In this document: positions 25,225 to 44,481 of the stretch, piece after piece
Numbering within the stretch: position 1 is the first letter of the stretch
Layout: the number at the start of each line of letters is the position of its first letter
Assembly: GCA_031432545.1 (NCBI GenBank)
Contig: JAVKGX010000001.1
Location: 194,411 to 258,410, forward strand
DNA: 64,000 nucleotides
DNA from: Armatimonadota bacterium
GTDB taxonomy: Bacteria > Sysuimicrobiota > Sysuimicrobiia > Sysuimicrobiales > Sysuimicrobiaceae
Reading direction: 5' to 3'
Program-made: the position numbers and the translations under genes
The notes under the pieces: model-generated
The model's input: only the letters and a program-made list of their open reading frames with translations
Told to the model about the DNA's origin: nothing
Databases searched by the model: none

Positions 25225-27660
25225 GTGCGCCAGCAAAACGAGGCCTTCCGGGCGCTGCACGAGATCGCCGTCGCGCTCGGTGGATGCATGGCGGTCTCGG
25301 ACCTGTTGCAGGCCATCCTCAGCCACGCCTGCCGGTTCGCCGGCGCGCCCCACGGCATCGTCGCCCTGTACAGCCCGGAAGAAGATATGCTCATAACCGA
25401 GGCGACGACCGACACTCTGCGGGCGTACATCGGCGTCGGCATCCGTCCCGGAGAAGGGCTGGGCGGGCGTGCGTGGCAACTCCGCCGGCCCGTCGTCGTC
25501 GACGACTACGACACGTGGCCCTGTCGGCGTCCGCAGATCCCACGCGGGGCGGTGCGCGCCGCCGCGGCCGTCCCCTTCTTGAGCCGCGGCCGACCCCTCG
25601 GCGTGCTGACCGTGGTGCACACCGATCCCGGCAAGAGGTTCGACCCGGAGCAGGTGGCGATGCTGACGCGGTTCGCAGAGGTGGCCGCGATCGCGCTGGA
25701 CAACGCCCAGCAGCACGCCGCCGTGCAGCGGCATGCCAGGGAACTGGAGTTGCTCCACCGGGTGCGCTCCGTCCTCGCCCGCGCCATGGACATACCGGCT
25801 CTGTTCGAGGCCGTGGTGTACGCGATCTCCGATGTGTTCGGCTACCCGAGGGTTGCGATCTACACGCGGGAGGACGCCCAACTCGTCTGCCGGGCCCACA
25901 CCGGGACCGGCTGGGCTCTGCCCCAGATCCCGATCGAACGTGGGGTGAACGGCCGCGTCGTGCGCACCGGGGTGGGAGCGCTGGTCCGGGACGTACGGCT
26001 CGACCCCGACTACGTCGGACCTCTGGAGGGTGTGGCCTCGGAGGTTTGCGTGCCGCTGGTGGACGAAGCCGCGGTCGTCGGGACCCTCAACGTCGAGACC
26101 CCGGAGGGGGTGCGCCTGGGGGATGACGATCTCCGCCTGATGACGATGGTGGCAGAATACGTCGGCATGGCGATGACGCGAGCGCGGCTGCACACGCGCG
26201 TCCGGGACAGCGAGCGCCGGTTCCGGGCGCTGGTGCAGAACAGCTCCGACATTCTCACGTTGCTGGCCGCCGACGGCACGGTCCTGTACCAGAGCCCCTC
26301 GATCGCGAGGGTCCTCGGGTACGCACCCGAGGACCTTTTGGGACAAAACGTGTTCGACTACGTACACCCAGAGGATCGGCCGGCGGTGCGGGCCGAGTTC
26401 CAGGCGATGCTGCGGGAGAGACGATCCGGCCACGTGGTGCGCTACAGGTTCCGCAACGCCGGTGGCGCGTGGACGTGGCTGGAGTCGATCGGCAGCGACC
26501 TGCGCGCGGACCCGGACATCGGTGCGGTCGTCGTCAACTCCCGCGACGTCACCGAGCGGTGGGAAGCGGAAGCCGCGCTGCGGGCGCGCACCGCCGAACT
26601 GGAGGCGGTCTACGAACTCAGCACCGCGCTGCGCCAGGCTTCGAGCGTGGAGGAAATGTACCCGATCGTCGTGCAGCGCGCCGTCCGACTGACGCGCTCG
26701 GATCACGGCGCGATCGCTCTGCTGACCCCGGACGGCAGCCTGACGTTCGCACACGTCGAGGGCGCTCTGCCGCACCTCGTCGGAACCCGCTTGCCTCCGG
26801 AGAGTCTGTCCGGCCGGGTGGTCGCCAGCGGGGTTCCGTTCGTCGCCGCGGCCTTTCCCGAGGACTCCGGCGTCCGCATTGGCGCGGAGGCCGGGCTGGG
26901 TCCGGTCGTCATCGTCCCGGTCCGATCGGACGACGGAACGATCGGCACGCTGTCGGTGGCGCGCCGCAGGGTCCCGGATGGGTGCGCGTACGCGCCTCAC
27001 GAGGTGAGGATCGTCGAGGCGTTGGCCGAGCTGGCCGGCAACGCGATCAGGCGGGCATCCCTGTTTGCCCACCTCGAGCACTCATACATCGAGATGGTCC
27101 TGGCGCTCGCTCGGGCCATGGACGCCCGCGACAGCTACACCGCCGGGCACGCGGACCGTCTGGCCGTGTGGGCCCAAGCGGTGGCGCGACGCATGGGCTG
27201 CCACGAGCAGCAGACGCGCGAGATCCGCTGGGCGGCCCTGCTGCACGACATCGGCAAGATCGGGATCCCGGACTCCATCCTCCTCAAGCCCGGGCCGCTG
27301 ACGGAACAGGAGTGGACCGTGATGCGGCGGCACCCGGCCATCGGCGAGCGGATCCTGCAGCCGGTCGAGCGGTTGCGGAACGTCGCGCGGCTGGTCCGAC
27401 ACCACCAGGAGCGCTGGGACGGCACCGGCTATCCCGACGGGCTGGCCGGCGACACCATCCCGCTGGGCGCCCGGATTTTGGCCACGGTGGATGCGTACGG
27501 GGCCATGATCGATCGCCGACCGTACAAGCAAGCCCGCTCGCACGAAGAGGCGGTGGCCGAGCTGCGGCGGTGTGCGGGGACGCAGTTCGATCCCGACGTC
27601 GTGGCCGTCTTCGTGGACTTCCTACAGGAGCAGCGGAGCAGCGATGCGCGTGGATCGTAA
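25225..27660 (+). CDS. GAF-GAF-PAS-GAF-HD-GYP cyclic-di-GMP phosphodiesterase
   Basis: 811 residues. Two GAF domains (about 20-160, 175-320), one PAS domain (about 325-450), a third GAF (about 470-610) and a C-terminal HD-GYP domain (about 625-805). The catalytic metal site is complete: H674-D675 followed by I-G-K-I-G-I-P-D, and G735-Y736-P737 inside H-H-x-E-R-W-D-G-T-G-Y-P. It should hydrolyse cyclic-di-GMP under control of small ligands sensed by GAF and PAS. GTG 25225 follows GGGGAAG at 6 bases; GTG 25093 is the alternative. The next gene starts 17 bases before its end, coupling it to a cyclic-di-GMP synthase. Confidence 0.87.
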   Translation: MRQQNEAFRALHEIAVALGGCMAVSDLLQAILSHACRFAGAPHGIVALYSPEEDMLITEATTDTLRAYIGVGIRPGEGLGGRAWQLRRPVVVDDYDTWPCRRPQIPRGAVRAAAAVPFLSRGRPLGVLTVVHTDPGKRFDPEQVAMLTRFAEVAAIALDNAQQHAAVQRHARELELLHRVRSVLARAMDIPALFEAVVYAISDVFGYPRVAIYTREDAQLVCRAHTGTGWALPQIPIERGVNGRVVRTGVGALVRDVRLDPDYVGPLEGVASEVCVPLVDEAAVVGTLNVETPEGVRLGDDDLRLMTMVAEYVGMAMTRARLHTRVRDSERRFRALVQNSSDILTLLAADGTVLYQSPSIARVLGYAPEDLLGQNVFDYVHPEDRPAVRAEFQAMLRERRSGHVVRYRFRNAGGAWTWLESIGSDLRADPDIGAVVVNSRDVTERWEAEAALRARTAELEAVYELSTALRQASSVEEMYPIVVQRAVRLTRSDHGAIALLTPDGSLTFAHVEGALPHLVGTRLPPESLSGRVVASGVPFVAAAFPEDSGVRIGAEAGLGPVVIVPVRSDDGTIGTLSVARRRVPDGCAYAPHEVRIVEALAELAGNAIRRASLFAHLEHSYIEMVLALARAMDARDSYTAGHADRLAVWAQAVARRMGCHEQQTREIRWAALLHDIGKIGIPDSILLKPGPLTEQEWTVMRRHPAIGERILQPVERLRNVARLVRHHQERWDGTGYPDGLAGDTIPLGARILATVDAYGAMIDRRPYKQARSHEEAVAELRRCAGTQFDPDVVAVFVDFLQEQRSSDARGS

Positions 27661-28894
27661 CCGGTCCGGAGAGTTCGTCGACGACATCTTCCTGGTGGCC
27701 GTCCCGACCACCGTGGCGGTGATCGCCAGCCTGCAACTGCTGATGTTCGATCGGTGGGCGGCGTTCGCGGAGCCGCAGACGTTCGACTTGCGTGGCCCGA
27801 GTCTGCTGTTCTTGGCCTTGAGCGTGTCGGCGGGTGCGGTCGCGCTCCGCCGCCTGCGCCGCCTGTACGAGATGAATGCCCGGCTGCGAGCGCTCGAGCG
27901 GACGGCTCAGATCGCCGCGTCAGCGCTGGAACCCAAGGAGGTGCTGCGCGAGTCGGTGAACGCGGTCCATAAGATCATGGGATACAGCCACGTCGCGGTG
28001 ATGTGGCTCGAGGAAAACAGGTTGGTGCCCGCGGTGTGGATCGGTTACGCGCACGTGCCGGAGATCCCGCTGAACCGCGGCGTGACCGGGCGTGCGGCGC
28101 GCACCAAACAGATCGTCTTCGTGCCCGACGTCCGCACATGTCCGGATTTCATCCCGGGTACGGACGGTACCACGTCGGAGATCGCATGCCCGATCCTCGT
28201 CGAAGGTCAAGTCGTCGGCGTCCTGAACGTGGAGACCGTGGGTGGGCGGCGTCTGTACCCCGACGACGTCGACCTGATCTGCAGCGTGGCAGCGCAGATG
28301 GGCGTGGCATTGCGGAACGCCATGCGGTTCGAGGAGACGCGCGAGCGGGCGATTCGCGACGGTCTGACGGACCTACTCAACCACGCCTACTTCCAGCACC
28401 GCATCCGCGAAGAGATCGCTCGGGCGCGCCGTCGCGGCCAGCGGCTGGCGTTGGGCTTTTTGGACCTGGATGACTTCAAGGCCACGAACGACACCTTCGG
28501 ACACGCAGAAGGCGACCGCGTGCTGCGGGCGCTGGCCGGCGTGCTGCGGGGCGTCGTGCGTGCCGAGGATGTCGTTGCGCGCTACGGTGGGGAGGAGTTC
28601 GCGATCGTGATGCCCGAGACCGGCGCGGACGAGGCCGGGAGGGTGGCCGAGCGGATCCGGGCCCGGCTGTCGGCGCGGCCGCTTGTGCACGTCGGGTCCA
28701 CGCCCGTGGTGGTCACGGCGAGTCTTGGCATCGCGGAGTTTCCCCGTCATGCCGATACGGCGGAGGAACTGATCCGCAGGGCCGACGAGGCGCTGTACCG
28801 GGCCAAGCGCGCGGGCAAGAACCGCGTCTGGGTCGCGGGTGATCCGGAACCCGGCGGCCCGCCGGCGGCCCGCAACAGCCGAGTGTTCGCGTGA
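27644..28894 (+). CDS. Membrane GAF-GGDEF diguanylate cyclase
   Basis: 416 residues. Two hydrophobic segments (about 15-35 and 48-68) anchor the N-terminus, then a coiled linker, a GAF domain (about 90-230) and a GGDEF domain (about 240-400). The active motif is the accepted variant G-G-E-E-F (315-319). The inhibitory site R306-x-x-D309 lies exactly five residues upstream, so product inhibition by cyclic-di-GMP is expected. The ATG overlaps the HD-GYP gene by 17 bases. The pair thus encodes opposing activities from one message. A small membrane-proximal signal is the likely input. Confidence 0.87.
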   Translation: MRVDRNRSGEFVDDIFLVAVPTTVAVIASLQLLMFDRWAAFAEPQTFDLRGPSLLFLALSVSAGAVALRRLRRLYEMNARLRALERTAQIAASALEPKEVLRESVNAVHKIMGYSHVAVMWLEENRLVPAVWIGYAHVPEIPLNRGVTGRAARTKQIVFVPDVRTCPDFIPGTDGTTSEIACPILVEGQVVGVLNVETVGGRRLYPDDVDLICSVAAQMGVALRNAMRFEETRERAIRDGLTDLLNHAYFQHRIREEIARARRRGQRLALGFLDLDDFKATNDTFGHAEGDRVLRALAGVLRGVVRAEDVVARYGGEEFAIVMPETGADEAGRVAERIRARLSARPLVHVGSTPVVVTASLGIAEFPRHADTAEELIRRADEALYRAKRAGKNRVWVAGDPEPGGPPAARNSRVFA

Positions 28895-33889: not shown

Positions 33890-34951
33890 TCAGGCTAGGC
33901 CCCGGATGCGCAGGCGCAGGTCGTTCGGGGAATCGGCGTTGCGCAGGGCTTCTTCGTAGCTGATCAACTCGCGCTGGTAGAGGTCATGGAGGGCCTGGTC
34001 GAACGTCTGCATCCCCTCCTGCCGTCCGGCGTGCAGCGCCTGGCGGATCGACCCGATATCGCCCTTCTTGATGAGTTCGCGGATGCGGGGCGTCGCCACA
34101 AGGACTTCCACCGCTGCCACCCGTCCCCGGCCGTCGGAGCGCGGGATGAGGCGCTGAGAGACGATGCCCTCGAGCGTGATGGACAGGCGGTGGAGGATCT
34201 CCTGCGTGTGGTCGGGCGAGAAGAACGCCAGCATCCGCTCGAGGGTCTGCGCGGCGTTCATGGAGTGCAGCGTGCTCAAGACCAGGTGGCCGGTCTCGGC
34301 GAAGTACAGCGCGGCCTCCGCGGACTCCTGATCGCGCATCTCCCCGATCAGCACGACGTCGGGTGCCTGGCGGAGGGCACCGCGCAGCGCGTCGTGAAAC
34401 GTCGGGGTGTCGGTGGCGACTTCGCGCTGGCTGACGATGCTCTTCTTGTCCGCGTGCAGGTACTCGATGGGATCCTCGATCGTCACGATGTGGCCGTCGC
34501 GCTGCGCGTTGCGTTGGTCGATCATCGCGGCGAGCGTCGTCGACTTGCCGGATCCGGAAGGCCCCGTCACCAGCACCAGGCCCCGCTTGCGCATGACCAG
34601 ATCGCGCAGCACCTCCGGCAGGCCGAGGTCCTCGAAGGACGGGATGTCCGTTCGGACACGGCGCGCGACGATCGCGAGCGATCCGCGCTGACGGTAGACG
34701 TTGACGCGGAAGCGGCCGATCTTGGGCACGCTGTAGGCCAAATCGATGCTCTGGCGGGATTGCAGTTCGGCGAGTTGGTCTTCGCGCAGCAGTTGAGACA
34801 CGAGTTCCGCCGCCAGGTTGACCGTCACCCGCTCGTCGGAACTCGGACGCATCTCGTCGTGCACCCGGTACATCGGCGGGGAGCCCACCTTCACGTACAG
34901 GTCGCTGGCATCCAGTTCCACCATCCGAGCGAGCAGGTCGTTGATGTGCAC
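33890..34951 (-). CDS. pilT: PilT/PilU-type twitching-motility ATPase
   Basis: 353 residues. An N-terminal PAS-like domain (about 1-95) and a RecA-like ATPase: Walker A G-P-S-G-S-G-K-S-T near 135, Asp box, Walker B V-V-L-I-G-E-M-R-D near 205, and the PilT marker A-x-x-A-L-x-x-A-E-T-G-H. It powers pilus retraction as a hexamer at the base of the type IV pilus. GTG 34951 follows GGGAGG. It is the third gene of a three-gene unit, 31 bases after the other PilT. It may be the PilU-like partner, since its Walker A has Ser where the other has Thr. Confidence 0.88.
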   Translation of the reverse strand: MHINDLLARMVELDASDLYVKVGSPPMYRVHDEMRPSSDERVTVNLAAELVSQLLREDQLAELQSRQSIDLAYSVPKIGRFRVNVYRQRGSLAIVARRVRTDIPSFEDLGLPEVLRDLVMRKRGLVLVTGPSGSGKSTTLAAMIDQRNAQRDGHIVTIEDPIEYLHADKKSIVSQREVATDTPTFHDALRGALRQAPDVVLIGEMRDQESAEAALYFAETGHLVLSTLHSMNAAQTLERMLAFFSPDHTQEILHRLSITLEGIVSQRLIPRSDGRGRVAAVEVLVATPRIRELIKKGDIGSIRQALHAGRQEGMQTFDQALHDLYQRELISYEEALRNADSPNDLRLRIRGLA

Positions 34952-34982: not shown

Positions 34983-36080
34983 TCATCCCCACGCTCCGTG
35001 CAGGGACGGCTTGGCGACCCCACCGGTGACCCCGTCGCGGGCGAAGGTGTGCTTGTCGACGGCCCACCGCGCGGCCGTCTCCGGTGTGATCTGTCCGGTC
35101 TTCAGCAGGTTGCGCAGGCTCTGGTCGAGGCTCTGCATGCCGTCCTTCATCCCCGTCTGGATCGCCGAGAGGATCTGGTGGATCTTGTTCTCGCGGACCA
35201 GGTTGCGAATCGCCGGGGTGGCGACCATCACCTCGACCGCGGGCACTCGCCCCGATCCGTCGGCCGTGGGCAGCAGGATCTGGGCGGCCACGCCGACGAG
35301 TCCCTCGGCCAGCTGGACGCGGACCTGCTCTTGCTGGTGGCTGGGGAAGACGTCGATGATCCGACTCACCGTCTGTGGGGCGCTGGACGTGTGCAGCGTT
35401 GCCATCACCAGGTGGCCGGTCTCCGCGGCCGTCAGCGCCATCGAGATCGTCTCCAGATCGCGCATCTCGCCGACGAGGATCACGTCCGGATCCTCGCGCA
35501 GCGCGGCCCGCAGCGCACCGCTGAACGATTTGGTGTTCAGGCCCACCTCGCGCTGGTTGATGATGCACTTCTTGTGTTCGTGGACGAACTCGATCGGGTC
35601 TTCGATCGTGATGATGTGGGCGCTGCGGCGCTGGTTGATCAAATCCACCATCGCCGCCAGCGTCGTCGACTTGCCCGATCCGGTGGGTCCGGTGACGAGG
35701 ATCAACCCGCGGTCGCGCAAGGCGAGCTCCCCGAGGACGGGCGGCAGGCCGAGTTCCTCCAGCGTCTTGATCCGGGATGGGATCAAGCGGAAGACCGCGC
35801 CCTCGCCCAGGCGCTGCTGGAACACGTTCACGCGGTAGCGCCCGAGGTTGGCCAGTTCGATCGAGAAGTCCAGGTCCCAGTTCTCCTCGAACTTCGCCTT
35901 CTGATGGTCCGAGAGGATCTCGTAGATCATCGTGTGCAGCGCTTCCTTGGTCAGCGGGGCCCAGCCGTCGACGTCCACCAGAGCGCCGTGCAGGCGCAGC
36001 TTCGGTGGGATTCCGACTGTGAGGTGGAGGTCGGAAGCACCGCGCTCCTTGGCCAGGATCAGAAGCTGCGTGATGTCCAC
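34983..36080 (-). CDS. pilT: PilT twitching-motility retraction ATPase
   Basis: 365 residues. Same domain order as the following gene: PAS-like N-domain, Walker A G-P-T-G-S-G-K-S-T near 130, Walker B V-I-L-V-G-E-M-R-D near 200, and the A-I-R-N-L motif near 285. The C-terminal extension (about 340-365) carries a V-D-K-H tail. GTG 36080 is one base from the stop of the PilB-like gene, with GGAGG reaching over from its end. It should retract type IV pili. Confidence 0.88.
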   Translation of the reverse strand: MDITQLLILAKERGASDLHLTVGIPPKLRLHGALVDVDGWAPLTKEALHTMIYEILSDHQKAKFEENWDLDFSIELANLGRYRVNVFQQRLGEGAVFRLIPSRIKTLEELGLPPVLGELALRDRGLILVTGPTGSGKSTTLAAMVDLINQRRSAHIITIEDPIEFVHEHKKCIINQREVGLNTKSFSGALRAALREDPDVILVGEMRDLETISMALTAAETGHLVMATLHTSSAPQTVSRIIDVFPSHQQEQVRVQLAEGLVGVAAQILLPTADGSGRVPAVEVMVATPAIRNLVRENKIHQILSAIQTGMKDGMQSLDQSLRNLLKTGQITPETAARWAVDKHTFARDGVTGGVAKPSLHGAWG

Positions 36081-36081
36081 G

Positions 36082-37578
36082 TCACGCCTCCAGCAGGTCC
36101 CAGACCGCCTTTGGGGTCGTCCGCAGACGCTGCACGGCTTCCCGCGCGCCGTCCGCCAGCGCAGGCGCGAGAGTGGATCGGATCCGCTCAGCCAGGGCAA
36201 AGGGCGAGGGTTCCAGCAGGGCTCGCTGCAGTTCTGGCCCTGCCGGGTACCACTCGTGCAGCACGGCGTATCCGTCGTAGCCGGTCTGGCGGCAGTCGTC
36301 GCAGCCTGCGGGCGCCCCCCATCGGGCAGGCGGCTGCCCGGGCCAGCCGGGAGGGGGCTGTCGGTGTTCGGTCGCGCACCGGCACAGCGCGGGCACGCGT
36401 ACGGTGCAGAGGACGCCGGTCAGCGCCGCCTGCAGGTGCAGCCGGCCTGCCCGGGCGGCCAGGTCCTCCAGGGCCCAGGCCGCGCGCAGGTGCGGCGTCC
36501 CCACCACCAGGACCTGGCCAGGATGGCGGGCCGCGATGAGCAAGGCGGCCAGGTCCAGGTCGGCTCCGGTGTCGGCTGACACGAACTCGGCCCGGGTGTG
36601 GGCAACGAGGTCGGGGTCTGGCGTCTGGACTTCCACAGCGTTGCCGATGGCCGTCGCGCCTGGCGCGCCGGCGACGACGACCAGGGTGCGAGGGGAGTCC
36701 GCGCTCGCTGCCAGGGCCCGCAGGATCCCGCGCCGCAACGCCGGCTCGGGGGAACCGACGATCAGCACGCCGGGCTTCCGGATGGTCTCGCAAAGACGGT
36801 CCAACACCCCCTCGGGCAGCAGGTCGCCGAACGAACCCCCCGACAGGGTGCCGAACACCGCGGTGCCGTGCGGCGTGGCCGCAGCCCGTAGGTTCACGTC
36901 CAGCCAATGACCCGGAAGTGGGATCTGCACCCGCACGGGCTGCGGCGCCCGTGCGATCTCGTCGAGTGTGCCCGGTTCCAACGACGGGCCGTGGCTGGCC
37001 ACCAGGCCGCCGGGGGTTCGGTAGCGGACGCGAATGCCCGCAGCGAGCGGCTCGAAGTAGATCTCCTCCGCGCCCGCAGCGGCCGCGGCACTCAGGTGGA
37101 AGCGCAGGGCTGGGGCCCCCAGGGCGACCTCGGGGCTGCCGGTACGGGACTGCAGGGCGGCGAGCGTCGTCTCGATGTCGCTGGCCAGCGCGATGGCCGT
37201 GGCGACCCGTAGCCCGCTGATCCGTTCGACCTCGGCGACGGCGGCTTCGTCGGTCGGGTCGACCATCGCGACCGTGATCTCGTCGGTGGTGGCGATCACC
37301 GGGCACAGCCCCAGACGCCGCGCCGCATGGACGGGCACCCGCTCGACCGCCGCGGGGTCTACCAGCTCGGGAGACAGGTGCACGTAGGGGACCTGCAGCT
37401 GCGTGCTTAGCGCCCACGCGATGTCGTCCTCGGATGCATGGCCAAGCTGCAGCAGCGCGGCCCCCAGCCGAATCCCGCTCTGCTTGTGGGCTGCGATCGC
37501 TTCGTCCAGCTGTGCCCGGGTGATCAGGCCGGTCTGAACCAAAATCTCGCCGAGGCGTGTCCTCGTGGCTGTGCCCAA
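36082..37578 (-). CDS. Degenerate PilB/GspE-like protein without an ATP site
   Basis: 498 residues from TTG 37578, behind GGGGAGG. Residues about 8-140 form the MshEN/GspE N-domain that binds cyclic-di-GMP in PilB relatives (R-L-G-E-I-L-V-x-x-G-L-I motif). Residues about 150-490 follow the secretion-ATPase fold, but where Walker A should read G-P-T-G-S-G-K-T-T it reads G-S-P-E-P-A-L-R-R, and Walker B is also lost (L-V-V-G-T-P-H-L). The zinc tetracysteine is kept: C-R-C near 405 and C-D-D-C near 430. It cannot hydrolyse ATP in the usual way. It may act as a regulatory subunit of the pilus motor or a cyclic-di-GMP sensor. It heads the pilT operon. Confidence 0.8.
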   Translation of the reverse strand: MGTATRTRLGEILVQTGLITRAQLDEAIAAHKQSGIRLGAALLQLGHASEDDIAWALSTQLQVPYVHLSPELVDPAAVERVPVHAARRLGLCPVIATTDEITVAMVDPTDEAAVAEVERISGLRVATAIALASDIETTLAALQSRTGSPEVALGAPALRFHLSAAAAAGAEEIYFEPLAAGIRVRYRTPGGLVASHGPSLEPGTLDEIARAPQPVRVQIPLPGHWLDVNLRAAATPHGTAVFGTLSGGSFGDLLPEGVLDRLCETIRKPGVLIVGSPEPALRRGILRALAASADSPRTLVVVAGAPGATAIGNAVEVQTPDPDLVAHTRAEFVSADTGADLDLAALLIAARHPGQVLVVGTPHLRAAWALEDLAARAGRLHLQAALTGVLCTVRVPALCRCATEHRQPPPGWPGQPPARWGAPAGCDDCRQTGYDGYAVLHEWYPAGPELQRALLEPSPFALAERIRSTLAPALADGAREAVQRLRTTPKAVWDLLEA

Positions 37579-37659: not shown

Positions 37660-39162
37660 CTACAGGCCGTAGATCTGGCTGTACTTCGCCTTGAGGTAAA
37701 GCAGGTAAGGCTGCGGCTCGAGCGGCCGTCCGGTCACCCGCTGCACCAGTTCGTGGGGTAGGAACTTGCGGCCGTGGCGGTAGACGTTGTCGACCAGCCA
37801 CTCCCGCAGGGTCTGGAAGCGGCCCTCGCGGATCTCGGAGGGGATCTCGGGACGGGCAGCCAGCGCCGTCTGGTAGATCTGGGCCGATAGCACGTTGCCC
37901 AGCGCGTAGGTCGGGAAGTACCCGAACGAACCGCTGGACCAGTGGCTGTCCTGCATCACGCCGTCGCGGTCGTCGGGGGGCGTGATCCCCAGGTAGGAGC
38001 GCATGCCGGCTGCCCAGGCCTCGGGGAGGTCCGCGGCGCGCATCTTGTCGGTCACCAGCTCGAGTTCCAGGTCGAACCGCAGCATGATGTGCAGGTTGTA
38101 GGTGACCTCATCCGCCACCACCCGGATCAGGCTGGGCTGCACCTTGTTGATCGCGCGGTAGAACTCCTCGACGGTCACGTCCCCCAGCGCATCCGGGAAC
38201 GTCTGCCGCAACTGGGGGAAGTAGTGCTCCCACAGCGGGCGGCTGCGTCCGACGACGTTCTCCCACATCCGCGACGACGACTCGTGGAAGACCATGCTGC
38301 ACCCCCGGGCCAGCGGGGTGCGTCCGAGGGAGGCGGCGGTGTTCATCTCGTACAGGGCGTGGCCGGTTTCGTGGAGGATCGCGAACAGCCCCTCGGACAG
38401 GCCGTTTCGGTCGTAGCGGGACGTGATGCGGACGTCGTCCCGACCGAAACTGGTTGCGAAGGGGTGGGGGGAGGTGTCCAGGCGCCCGCGGGTGAGGTCG
38501 TAGCCGTAGTCCTGCGCGATGCGCAGTCCGAACCCTGCCTGCGCTTCGACGGAGTAGTCGCGGTGGAGGAAGTCCGTGCGCGGTTCCGGCCGTTCGACGA
38601 TGGCCCGCACGAGTGCGACCTGCTCCGGGCGGATCGCATCGAAGATCCGACGGACGTCGGCGGTGCGCATCCCGGGCTCGTAGCCCTCCAGCAGCGCGTC
38701 GTAGGGGTGATCTTCGTATCCGTAGAAGTCCGCGGCCCGTCGCGCGTAGTCGACCATCTTCTCCAGGTGCGGCCGGAACGCGGCGAAGTCGTTCGCGGGG
38801 CGCGCCTGGCGCCAGACCTGGTTGCTCAGGACGCGGTCGCGCGCCCACGCGGCGACGAACGCCTCCGGCAGCTTGCGGGCACGGTCGTAGTCGCGGCGGA
38901 CGATCCGCACCAAGCAGCGGTCGTCGTGTTCTTCGGGCAGGGAAGCGACTTCCGGTTCGGCCGCGTCCAGCAGCGTCGCCGTCCGGTCCGAGGTGAACTT
39001 GGCATGGGCCAGCCGGCTGAGCGTGGAGATCTGTTCGGCGCGGTGCGGTCCCCCGCGCGCAGGCATATAGGTCTGCTGGTCCCAGCCCAGCACGCCGATG
39101 GCCTTGCCGATGTCGTGGATCTCGGCCAAGTGCTCCCGCAGTTCCTTCACGGCATTACCCAC
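37660..39162 (-). CDS. M32 metallocarboxypeptidase (Taq type)
   Basis: 500 residues, the family length. The zinc motif H264-E-T-G-H268 is intact, with the third ligand Glu in a H-E-S-S-S-R motif about 27 residues later. The family signatures D-Q-Q-T-Y-M-P near 30 and the I-R-x-x-A-D-E-V-x-Y-N-L-H near 350 are present. It removes C-terminal residues, except proline, from peptides, with broad specificity, and is common in thermophiles. Start GTG 39162 follows GGAG at 6 bases. TATACT lies about 43 bases upstream. Confidence 0.9.
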   Translation of the reverse strand: MGNAVKELREHLAEIHDIGKAIGVLGWDQQTYMPARGGPHRAEQISTLSRLAHAKFTSDRTATLLDAAEPEVASLPEEHDDRCLVRIVRRDYDRARKLPEAFVAAWARDRVLSNQVWRQARPANDFAAFRPHLEKMVDYARRAADFYGYEDHPYDALLEGYEPGMRTADVRRIFDAIRPEQVALVRAIVERPEPRTDFLHRDYSVEAQAGFGLRIAQDYGYDLTRGRLDTSPHPFATSFGRDDVRITSRYDRNGLSEGLFAILHETGHALYEMNTAASLGRTPLARGCSMVFHESSSRMWENVVGRSRPLWEHYFPQLRQTFPDALGDVTVEEFYRAINKVQPSLIRVVADEVTYNLHIMLRFDLELELVTDKMRAADLPEAWAAGMRSYLGITPPDDRDGVMQDSHWSSGSFGYFPTYALGNVLSAQIYQTALAARPEIPSEIREGRFQTLREWLVDNVYRHGRKFLPHELVQRVTGRPLEPQPYLLYLKAKYSQIYGL

Positions 39163-41808: not shown

Positions 41809-44481
41809 CTAGCCGTCTGCAATCCGCCCCGTCCCCGCTGTGGGCTCCTGCAGGATCTCGCGCACCTTGCTGGCCAGCTCGGTGATCAGGTAGGGCTTCT
41901 GGAGGAACCCGCACGCCCCACGGCGCAGGACGTCCTGCGCTGCGCCCTCCTGCGTGTAGCCGCTGCTGAGCAGCACGCGGGCGTCGGGGTCGATCGCCCG
42001 GATCGCATGGAAGGTCTCCTTGCCGCTCATGCCCGGCATCGTCATGTCCAGCAACACCAGGTCGATCTCGTCCCGGTACTGCTGATAGATGCGGACCGCC
42101 TCCTCGCCGCCGGTCGCGGTCATCACCCGGTACCCGCGGCGGACGAGCACGTCGCGAAGCAGGTTGCACAAGGGTTCCTCGTCGTCGACGACCAGAATCA
42201 TCTCGCCTGCGCCCTCCGCCACCTCGGTCTCCCCCTCCCCTTGCTCCTCCGCGGTCCCCTGCGCCACCGGCAGGTAGACTTCGACGGTCGTGCCGCGCCC
42301 CACGGCGGTTCGAACGTCGAGGAAGCCGCCGTGGTTGTGGACGATCCCGTACACCATCGCCAGACCGAGGCCCGTTCCCTTGCCCGGCTCCTTCGTGGTG
42401 AAGAACGGCTCGAACATGCGGGCGCGCGTGCGTTCGTCCATGCCGACGCCTGTGTCGCCGACCGACAGCGCGACGTAGCGCCGCAGCGATGTGACGTCGC
42501 CTGAGGCGGGATCCGGCGCCAGGGCGGGGGCGAGGGCGATCTCCAGGATGCCGCCGTCGGGCATCGCGTCGCGCGCATTCATGCACAGGTTCAAGACCAC
42601 GTGGTGGAGCTGGCCGCTGTCGCCCTCGACGGCAGGCAAGCCTTCGGGGAAGTGCGTCCGCAGTTCGATCTTGCCGTCGAGGGTGGTGCGGAACAGCTGC
42701 ACGACGTCTTTGCACAGCGCCGCCAGATCGACCGGCTGGACCTCGAACTTGCCCTTGCGTGCGAACCCGAGCAGCTGCCGTGTCAGCTCCGACGCCCGCA
42801 TCGCGCTGCGCTCTACGACTTCGAAGTAGGCGTGCAGCTGCGTGTCGGGCGGGAGGTCTTCCTTCAGCAGCCCCAGGTAGCCCACCATCGTCCCGAGGAT
42901 GTTGTTGAAGTCGTGCGCGATACCGCCGGCCAGCGTGCCGATGCTCTCCATCTTCTGGGCCTGCAGGAGTTGGTCTTCCAGCCGCTTCTGCTCGGAGATG
43001 TCGCGGTAGACGCCGACGATGCCGACAGGTCTGCGCTCGGCGTCGGTCCGCACCGACAGGGTGGCGGACAGCCACAGGGTGCGCCCGCCGTCACCCCGGT
43101 GCTGGATCTCGCCGCGCCAGCTTCCGTCGCGCAGCAGCACCGGCCGCAGTCGGGCGATTGTGGCTTCGTGGGGCTCGGGTTGGACCAGTCGGTCGAAGGG
43201 GCGTCCTGCGACCTCGTCGCGCCGCCAACCGTACAGCGTTTCGGCACCACGGTTGCAGTAGACGATGCAGCCGTCCCAGTCCATGGCCACGATGGCCTCG
43301 TGGACCTGGTCCAGGAGATCGGCCTGCAACTGCAGCGTCTGTGCGGCGCGGCGCTGCTCGGTGAGGTCGCGCACCGTTCCCAACAGCATCGGCTTGCCGC
43401 GCAGCAGGACGCGGTTGGCATGGATCTCGCAGGTGCGCACCGTTCCGTCGGATGCCCGCGCCCGGAAGATCGCGGTCGTGCGCGGGCTCAGCATCGCCAG
43501 CCGATCGCTGAGGTAAGCGCTGAGCGCCGCCCGGTCTTCGACCTCGCACATCGCCAAAGGACCGATCCGGCCGATCACGTCCGCGGACCCCACGCCGAAC
43601 AGCTCGACGAACCGCCGGTTGACCAGGCGGAACACGCCGTCCTCCAGGAGAAACATCGCGTCCGGGGACTCCTCGATGAGCGCGCGATAGCGCGATTCCG
43701 ACTCGCGCAGCGCCCCCTCCATCCGTCTCTGCTCGGTGACGTCGAAGGCGAACGCGACCACGCAGCGGAGCTCGCCCGCACGGTTGCGGACCGGAGCCAG
43801 CCGGATGTCGACGAGGCGGGTGGGCCGGGGCGGGACGGTGCGCGGCCCGGAGGCCGGCAGCCACTCGAACGCCGGGATGTCGGCCGCTTGCCCGCGGAAT
43901 GCGGCTTCCAGGGCGGACCGCTGAGCCGGGCCGTAGACTGAGCCGCGGTGCAGGGCGTTGCCCCGGTGGCCCCGGGAGGCAGGCATCCCGAACAGCGCGC
44001 ACCAAGCGTCGTTCGCCGCCAGCACGTTGCCCTTGGGATCGTACACCTCGATGGCGATGGGCAGGTCTCGGATGAGCTGCTGCGTCCGCGCGGCGAGTGC
44101 GGCCGATGTGTGGACCTCGGCGCCGGGCACCGCGACGGTGCACACGCCGACGTCGCCGATCCATCCCACGCGCGCGGCCGCGTCGAACGTCTGGCCGTCT
44201 GGCCGACGAAAGGTGAGGCGACCTTCCCATGCGCCGTCCGACGGCGGCTGCCGGAAGGCGCGTTCGGCGGCAGGCGAGGGCGGGATCAAATCGCGCACCG
44301 ACAACCGCGCGAGCGCCGCCGGCCGCATCCCGAACGCCTCGCCGGCTCTTTGGCTCGCCCACGTCACGGCTCCTTGGGCGTCGAACAGGAACACCGCGTC
44401 GGAGATCAGCTCCGACACGACGGCAAGTGGCTCTTCGACGCGACGAAGAGCCTGCTGCGGGGAACGCCTGAAGATCGCCAT
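41809..44481 (-). CDS. Four-PAS hybrid histidine kinase with receiver domain
   Basis: 890 residues. Four PAS domains (about 20-115, 130-250, 265-380, 385-505), HisKA dimerisation domain with phospho-His in G-G-I-A-H-D-F-N-N (about residue 522), HATPase (about 620-740, with G-K-G-T-G-L-G-L), and a C-terminal receiver (about 765-880, phospho-Asp near 809 in L-L-D-M-T-M-P-G). No membrane segment, so it senses inside the cell. The hybrid form implies a phosphorelay, but no phosphotransfer protein is encoded nearby. It begins 70 bases after the GTPase gene on the same strand. Confidence 0.9.
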   Translation of the reverse strand: MAIFRRSPQQALRRVEEPLAVVSELISDAVFLFDAQGAVTWASQRAGEAFGMRPAALARLSVRDLIPPSPAAERAFRQPPSDGAWEGRLTFRRPDGQTFDAAARVGWIGDVGVCTVAVPGAEVHTSAALAARTQQLIRDLPIAIEVYDPKGNVLAANDAWCALFGMPASRGHRGNALHRGSVYGPAQRSALEAAFRGQAADIPAFEWLPASGPRTVPPRPTRLVDIRLAPVRNRAGELRCVVAFAFDVTEQRRMEGALRESESRYRALIEESPDAMFLLEDGVFRLVNRRFVELFGVGSADVIGRIGPLAMCEVEDRAALSAYLSDRLAMLSPRTTAIFRARASDGTVRTCEIHANRVLLRGKPMLLGTVRDLTEQRRAAQTLQLQADLLDQVHEAIVAMDWDGCIVYCNRGAETLYGWRRDEVAGRPFDRLVQPEPHEATIARLRPVLLRDGSWRGEIQHRGDGGRTLWLSATLSVRTDAERRPVGIVGVYRDISEQKRLEDQLLQAQKMESIGTLAGGIAHDFNNILGTMVGYLGLLKEDLPPDTQLHAYFEVVERSAMRASELTRQLLGFARKGKFEVQPVDLAALCKDVVQLFRTTLDGKIELRTHFPEGLPAVEGDSGQLHHVVLNLCMNARDAMPDGGILEIALAPALAPDPASGDVTSLRRYVALSVGDTGVGMDERTRARMFEPFFTTKEPGKGTGLGLAMVYGIVHNHGGFLDVRTAVGRGTTVEVYLPVAQGTAEEQGEGETEVAEGAGEMILVVDDEEPLCNLLRDVLVRRGYRVMTATGGEEAVRIYQQYRDEIDLVLLDMTMPGMSGKETFHAIRAIDPDARVLLSSGYTQEGAAQDVLRRGACGFLQKPYLITELASKVREILQEPTAGTGRIADG

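Follow-up and report, generated by a model that had tools for sequence, protein, structure and literature searches.

A PilB paralogue with an erased ATP site heads a pilT operon and is a candidate signal-receiving subunit of a retraction module

The window is a stretch of 64,000 nucleotides from contig JAVKGX010000001.1 of an Armatimonadota bacterium. Its minus strand carries a gene for a PilB paralogue predicted to be motor-dead, referred to below as PBD (Table 1). The TTG start at 37578 is preceded by GGGGAGG and the gene ends with a TGA; the plus-strand frame over 36082-37578 is interrupted by stops. The original prediction, made from the sequence of the window, had given the same coordinates and had placed the gene one base before pilT, and both points hold: the stop (36084-36082) is followed by a single C and then by the GTG of PilT1 at 36080. 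The Shine-Dalgarno of PilT1 (GGAGG) is located within the PBD coding sequence, and the two genes are likely to be translationally coupled. A second pilT gene, PilT2, which is PilU-like, lies downstream of PilT1 (a longer PilT2 frame opens at 35023), so that PBD stands ahead of the pilT genes, as had also been predicted. On the other side, a gene for an M32-type carboxypeptidase (37660-39162, minus strand) separates PBD from an AI-2E-type permease gene; it is absent from this place in the loci L045-L048.

Table 1. Positions of the features discussed (window coordinates unless a locus is given)
Feature	Position	Strand	Basis
PBD, motor-dead PilB paralogue, 498 aa, TTG start	36082..37578	minus	ORF, Shine-Dalgarno, orthologs
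MshEN c-di-GMP motif I, RLGEILVQTGLITRAQLDEAIAAH, last position H instead of Q	37486..37557	minus	motif alignment
MshEN c-di-GMP motif II, RLGAALLQLGHASEDDIAWALSTQ	37399..37470	minus	motif alignment
MshEN C-subdomain DP motif (D107, invariant)	37246..37266	minus	ortholog alignment
Erased Walker A, GSPEPALRR for GPTGSGKTT	36730..36756	minus	ortholog alignment
Erased Walker B, EFVSADTG, GE replaced by DT	36565..36588	minus	ortholog alignment
Zinc-type cysteines C399-x-C401 and C426-xx-C429	36292..36384	minus	ortholog alignment
PilT1, intact PilT/PilU-family ATPase, Walker A GPTGSGKS, GTG start	34983..36080	minus	TIGR01420, E 5e-149
PilT2 (PilU-like), intact ATPase, Walker A GPSGSGKS	33890..34951	minus	TIGR01420, E 5e-134
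PAS-rich hybrid histidine kinase with receiver	41809..44481	minus	upstream of PBD, syntenic in the window's family (L045-L048)
Intact PilB, N-terminal TPR region before MshEN	L032:11269-13794 (contig C9)		own genome

The loss of both Walker motifs, already claimed in the original prediction, is confirmed by alignment and goes further: the PBD of the window has no Walker A (GxxxxGK[ST]), no catalytic glutamate in Walker B, no Asp box and no His box. Walker A is gone in 15/15 aligned orthologs, with an invariant arginine at the old lysine position, and none of them keeps the Walker B glutamate (in families f2 and f5 most members show DD instead), the Asp box or the His box, while PilBs of the same phylum retain GPTGSGKT. 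By its sequence PBD should no longer be able to hydrolyse ATP, and this loss, common to all orthologs, is older and deeper than the protein of the window alone would suggest.

With the PBD of the window as sole query, the T2SSE domain (PF00437) matches the C-terminal third only (E 1.5e-7, above the cut-off). The PilB model TIGR02538 gives 71.6 bits, under its cut-off of 675.65, and the PilT/PilU model TIGR01420 gives no match up to E 1. A profile built from 15 orthologs (A1) can be aligned over its whole length to solved PilB and PilF (E 4e-93 to 6e-66) and also with GspE across N2D and core. We take PBD to have a PilB-like fold of the T2SSE superfamily, co-linear over N2D and core, as far as these alignments tell. 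A structure prediction, with the protein of the window aligned to those of related loci, is confident for MshEN only, and Foldseek scores outside this domain were left out of the evidence. The RYR motif in N2D is largely retained among orthologs. As for the zinc tetracysteine attributed to PBD by the original prediction, the four cysteines are present but they are arranged as C-x-C plus CxxC, not as two CxxC; the first pair is C-x-C in the family of the window and CxxC in the other PBD families.

The MshEN domain is well established as a receptor of c-di-GMP and occurs fused to ATPases, glycosyltransferases and other proteins (PMC5013675). Its retention in PBD, which had been predicted, is borne out by matches to Pfam PF05157 (E 1e-16, span 61-147) and to the NCBIfam c-di-GMP motif NF053729 (E 6e-17, 61.2 bits for a cut-off of 38), residues 8-31 and 37-60 forming the two 24-residue motifs with a 5-residue linker. 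D107 in the C-subdomain is the probable counterpart of MshE Asp108. In motif I the pivotal arginine (MshE R9) is kept, but a histidine occupies the position of MshE Q32, a residue named pivotal (PMC12943098); this glutamine is kept in all 14 other aligned orthologs. In motif II of the window PBD a histidine occupies a hydrophobic position. The orthologs of G007, G016, G017 and G038 are motif-complete. A histidine at the same place in motif I is also found in the GSPII-A domain of Thermus PilF, a domain that is not credited with binding c-di-GMP and that departs much more in motif II than does the PBD of the window (PMC11731258).

Orthologs of PBD were found in 17 of the 43 genomes of the phylum, including one copy (G015) truncated at the edge of its contig, and all the readable ones are Walker-less. 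Uninterrupted orthologs, 42-46% identical to the PBD of the window, occur in four members of its family, and orthologs without internal stops are also present in two further families. Profile scores separate them from PilB: 440-780 bits for the orthologs (the G015 fragment apart), at most 284 for full-length PilBs. A scan of the contigs with the window PBD alone as query picked up nothing beyond ordinary PilBs and a single MshEN fragment. PBD was not found in the 343 genomes outside the phylum (search of 386 genomes, three candidates scored per genome). A tree built together with 28 PilBs places the orthologs in one clade with 100/100 support, the program giving a long-branch warning. Pairwise dN/dS of close PBD pairs is 0.10-0.30, which indicates purifying selection; the value of the distant pair G000/G005 (0.57) is near saturation and was not relied on.

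The genome of the window (2.19 Mb, rated 100% complete) has a second, intact PilB of 841 aa, for which the original prediction had proposed to search. It lies on another contig (C9), where PilT, PilC and a pilin are found nearby, as are a small protein of roadblock-like type and a sigma-factor-like gene. The genome also holds PilM, three PilT and nine GGDEF domains. The best GGDEF match is a GAF-GGDEF protein (GGEEF) encoded in the window (27644-28894, plus strand); the PBD locus, on its pilT side, ends about 5 kb away.

The neighbour of PBD does not vary. A gene of the PilT1 lineage directly follows PBD in 16/16 loci with visible downstream DNA, the two genes overlapping by up to 28 nt or lying up to 19 nt apart; in these loci the other PilT lineage is never directly after PBD. 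G002 (98% complete) has no PBD, and no PilT1-type gene is among its matches listed. Nine PilT1 genes are without adjacent PBD, and in G036 and G037 (L101, L108) a PilT1-PilT2 pair without PBD occupies the syntenic site that holds all three genes in G039 and G040 (L050, L051). PilT1 can thus work without PBD beside it, and a dependence of PilT1 on PBD was considered and discarded. G036 has a receiver-bearing PBD copy with its own PilT1 at another site. In G009 the divergent neighbour of PBD is a Walker-intact PilB-like gene (L058:6369-8111, plus strand). We read the linkage as the sign of a shared pathway rather than of contact; PBD might act on PilB or on the platform (PilC/PilM).

At eight loci PBD carries an in-frame receiver domain at its N-terminus (Pfam E at most 1e-21 in the six that were scanned), and the phospho-acceptor aspartate and the KP motif are visible in the receivers inspected. 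This domain is absent from the PBD of the window and of its family. The gene order of the G008 operon is PAS hybrid histidine kinase, receiver-HD-GYP, receiver-GGDEF, receiver-PBD, PilT1, PilT2; adjoining starts and stops touch or overlap, and the receiver-HD-GYP has an intact HHExxDGxGYP. The receiver-GGDEF of this operon (L057:8101-9033) has a dead active site (ENDTF) together with an RxxD I-site, and is possibly a second c-di-GMP receptor. In G016 and G017 receiver-PBD, PilT1 and PilT2 are preceded by a dCache-HAMP hybrid kinase (scanned in G016) and a receiver-HD-GYP (scanned in G017), and in G007 two receiver-HD proteins and a single receiver lie upstream of PBD. For the locus of the window, the hybrid kinase listed in Table 1 may be an upstream partner of PBD. 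The PBD of the window is a reduced version, in which the receiver is absent and the pivotal glutamine of MshEN is replaced by histidine.

Conservation along the protein points in the same direction as these fusions and operons. In the PBD clade the mean pairwise identity is 0.56 for MshEN, 0.40 for N2D and 0.35 for the core, while the corresponding values for the PilBs of the phylum are 0.45, 0.58 and 0.59. MshEN is thus the best kept part of PBD and the core the worst, the reverse of PilB, which is the pattern expected once a receptor has ceased to drive a motor. MshEN is also the best-conserved part between the PBD of the window and its relatives.

This inverted conservation, the receiver fusion in relatives and the operons with a hybrid kinase and an HD-GYP phosphodiesterase strongly favour a signalling role for PBD, and the invariable PilT neighbour favours a link with retraction. 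PBD would be a conserved pseudo-motor, predicted to be ATP-dead, in which the fold and the zinc site are preserved along with the MshEN c-di-GMP receptor domain; within a retraction module made up of PBD, PilT1 and PilT2 it would be the subunit that receives the signal. The c-di-GMP state at MshEN, and in relatives the phosphorylation of the fused receiver as well, would alter the conformation of PBD, and retraction would be gated through the effect of this conformation on how PilT1 and PilT2 engage with one another or with the pilus base. We give about even weight to PBD being the signal-receiving pseudo-motor that gates PilT1 and PilT2, a reading in which three things are inferred: that PBD binds c-di-GMP, that it physically touches PilT or the platform, and the direction in which it acts. 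More tentatively, and with somewhat less conviction, we propose that kinase, phosphodiesterase and receiver-MshEN-pseudoPilB, in one operon with PilT and its PilU-like partner, may constitute a combined c-di-GMP and phosphorelay switch for retraction. The original prediction had suggested a dead motor subunit that senses c-di-GMP and tunes retraction; this is still the preferred reading, its signalling and retraction parts being both favoured, but the histidine at the pivotal glutamine of MshEN calls for caution over c-di-GMP sensing in the protein of the window. If the gating reading is true, the retraction motor, rather than the extension motor, would be under direct second-messenger control. 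In the literature covered, c-di-GMP acts on type IV pili via the extension motor (MshE, PilB, PilF) or via adaptors of that motor (FimX). A natural motor-dead PilB dedicated to signal reception and genetically tied to PilT and its partner would also show a route from motor subunit to regulator.

Other functions of PBD have to be considered. PBD keeps the architecture of PilB end to end, zinc region included, and could be a decoy extension motor that stops extension on a c-di-GMP or phosphorylation signal, either by competing with active PilB for PilC/PilM or by poisoning PilB hexamers; the linkage to pilT would then reflect a joint control of the switch from extension to retraction. The presence of PilM and of an intact PilB in the same genome agrees with this, and multiple PilB-type motors and interactions between different motors are known (PMC11656802). 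We nevertheless find a decoy rather unlikely, since PBD is linked to PilT and not to PilB or PilC, except for the divergent PilB-like gene in G009, and since the core changes fastest, which is unexpected for a surface obliged to mimic PilB.

PBD could alternatively signal in the manner of a nucleotide-free PilB, reporting the state of the pilus or of the second messenger to another output, e.g. exopolysaccharide. In M. xanthus a Walker A mutant PilB signals dominantly (PMC5544727), and the receiver fusion and the kinase/phosphodiesterase operons of relatives would fit such a function. But no exopolysaccharide genes were noticed beside the PBD loci, whose constant neighbour is PilT, and we consider this output improbable.

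The likely translational coupling, the RYR largely kept in N2D and the invariant arginine at the old Walker lysine position would also suit a partner in the assembly or stoichiometry of PilT1 and PilT2, i.e. a chaperone or an arginine-finger donor in mixed hexamers, with little or no response to c-di-GMP at least in the family of the window, where the receiver is absent and the MshEN motif eroded. This is decidedly improbable, for MshEN is still the best-conserved part, the comparison of the window PBD with its relatives included, and some PilT1 genes manage without PBD.

Finally, a decaying pilB pseudogene, which the original prediction had named as the outcome should the genome have no intact PilB and the gene show decay, accounts for the loss of every nucleotide-handling motif but is hardly credible and was rejected on the grounds of purifying selection (dN/dS as above) and conservation: the frames of the orthologs are uninterrupted, PBD forms one clade separate from PilB, and an intact PilB lies elsewhere in the genome.

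Returning to PBD as a signal-receiving pseudo-motor, its closest known relatives are PilB, MshE and Thermus PilF (TIGR02538, PF00437 + PF05157), with which it shares the order MshEN-N2D-core-zinc site and a full-length profile match. It differs from them by the absence of Walker A, Walker B, Asp box and His box, by its linkage to pilT and by the receiver fusion in relatives. PilU is a motor paralogue encoded with PilT that acts through PilT; it retains its ATPase motifs, whereas PBD does not, and the likely counterpart of PilU at the PBD locus is PilT2. With the MshEN receptor of Vibrio MshE, as described by NF053729, PBD has in common the two 24-residue motifs, the 5-residue linker and the aspartate of the C-subdomain; its motor is dead, however, and the PBD of the window deviates at two motif positions. 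Compared by description only, Bdellovibrio Bd2402, an MshEN-containing response regulator that binds c-di-GMP (PMC5013675), resembles the orthologs of families f2 and f5 in joining response regulator and MshEN in one protein; what we saw of that description does not give it a PilB-type core or a place in a pilT operon. Searches of the open-access literature turned up no Walker-less PilB in a pilT operon; the original prediction had called the role undescribed. The Walker A mutant PilB of M. xanthus is likewise an ATP-dead PilB acting as a signal protein, but it is an engineered variant of an active motor, while PBD is a natural dedicated paralogue (PMC5544727). With respect to that literature, PBD is a previously undescribed variant within the known PilB/MshEN proteins.
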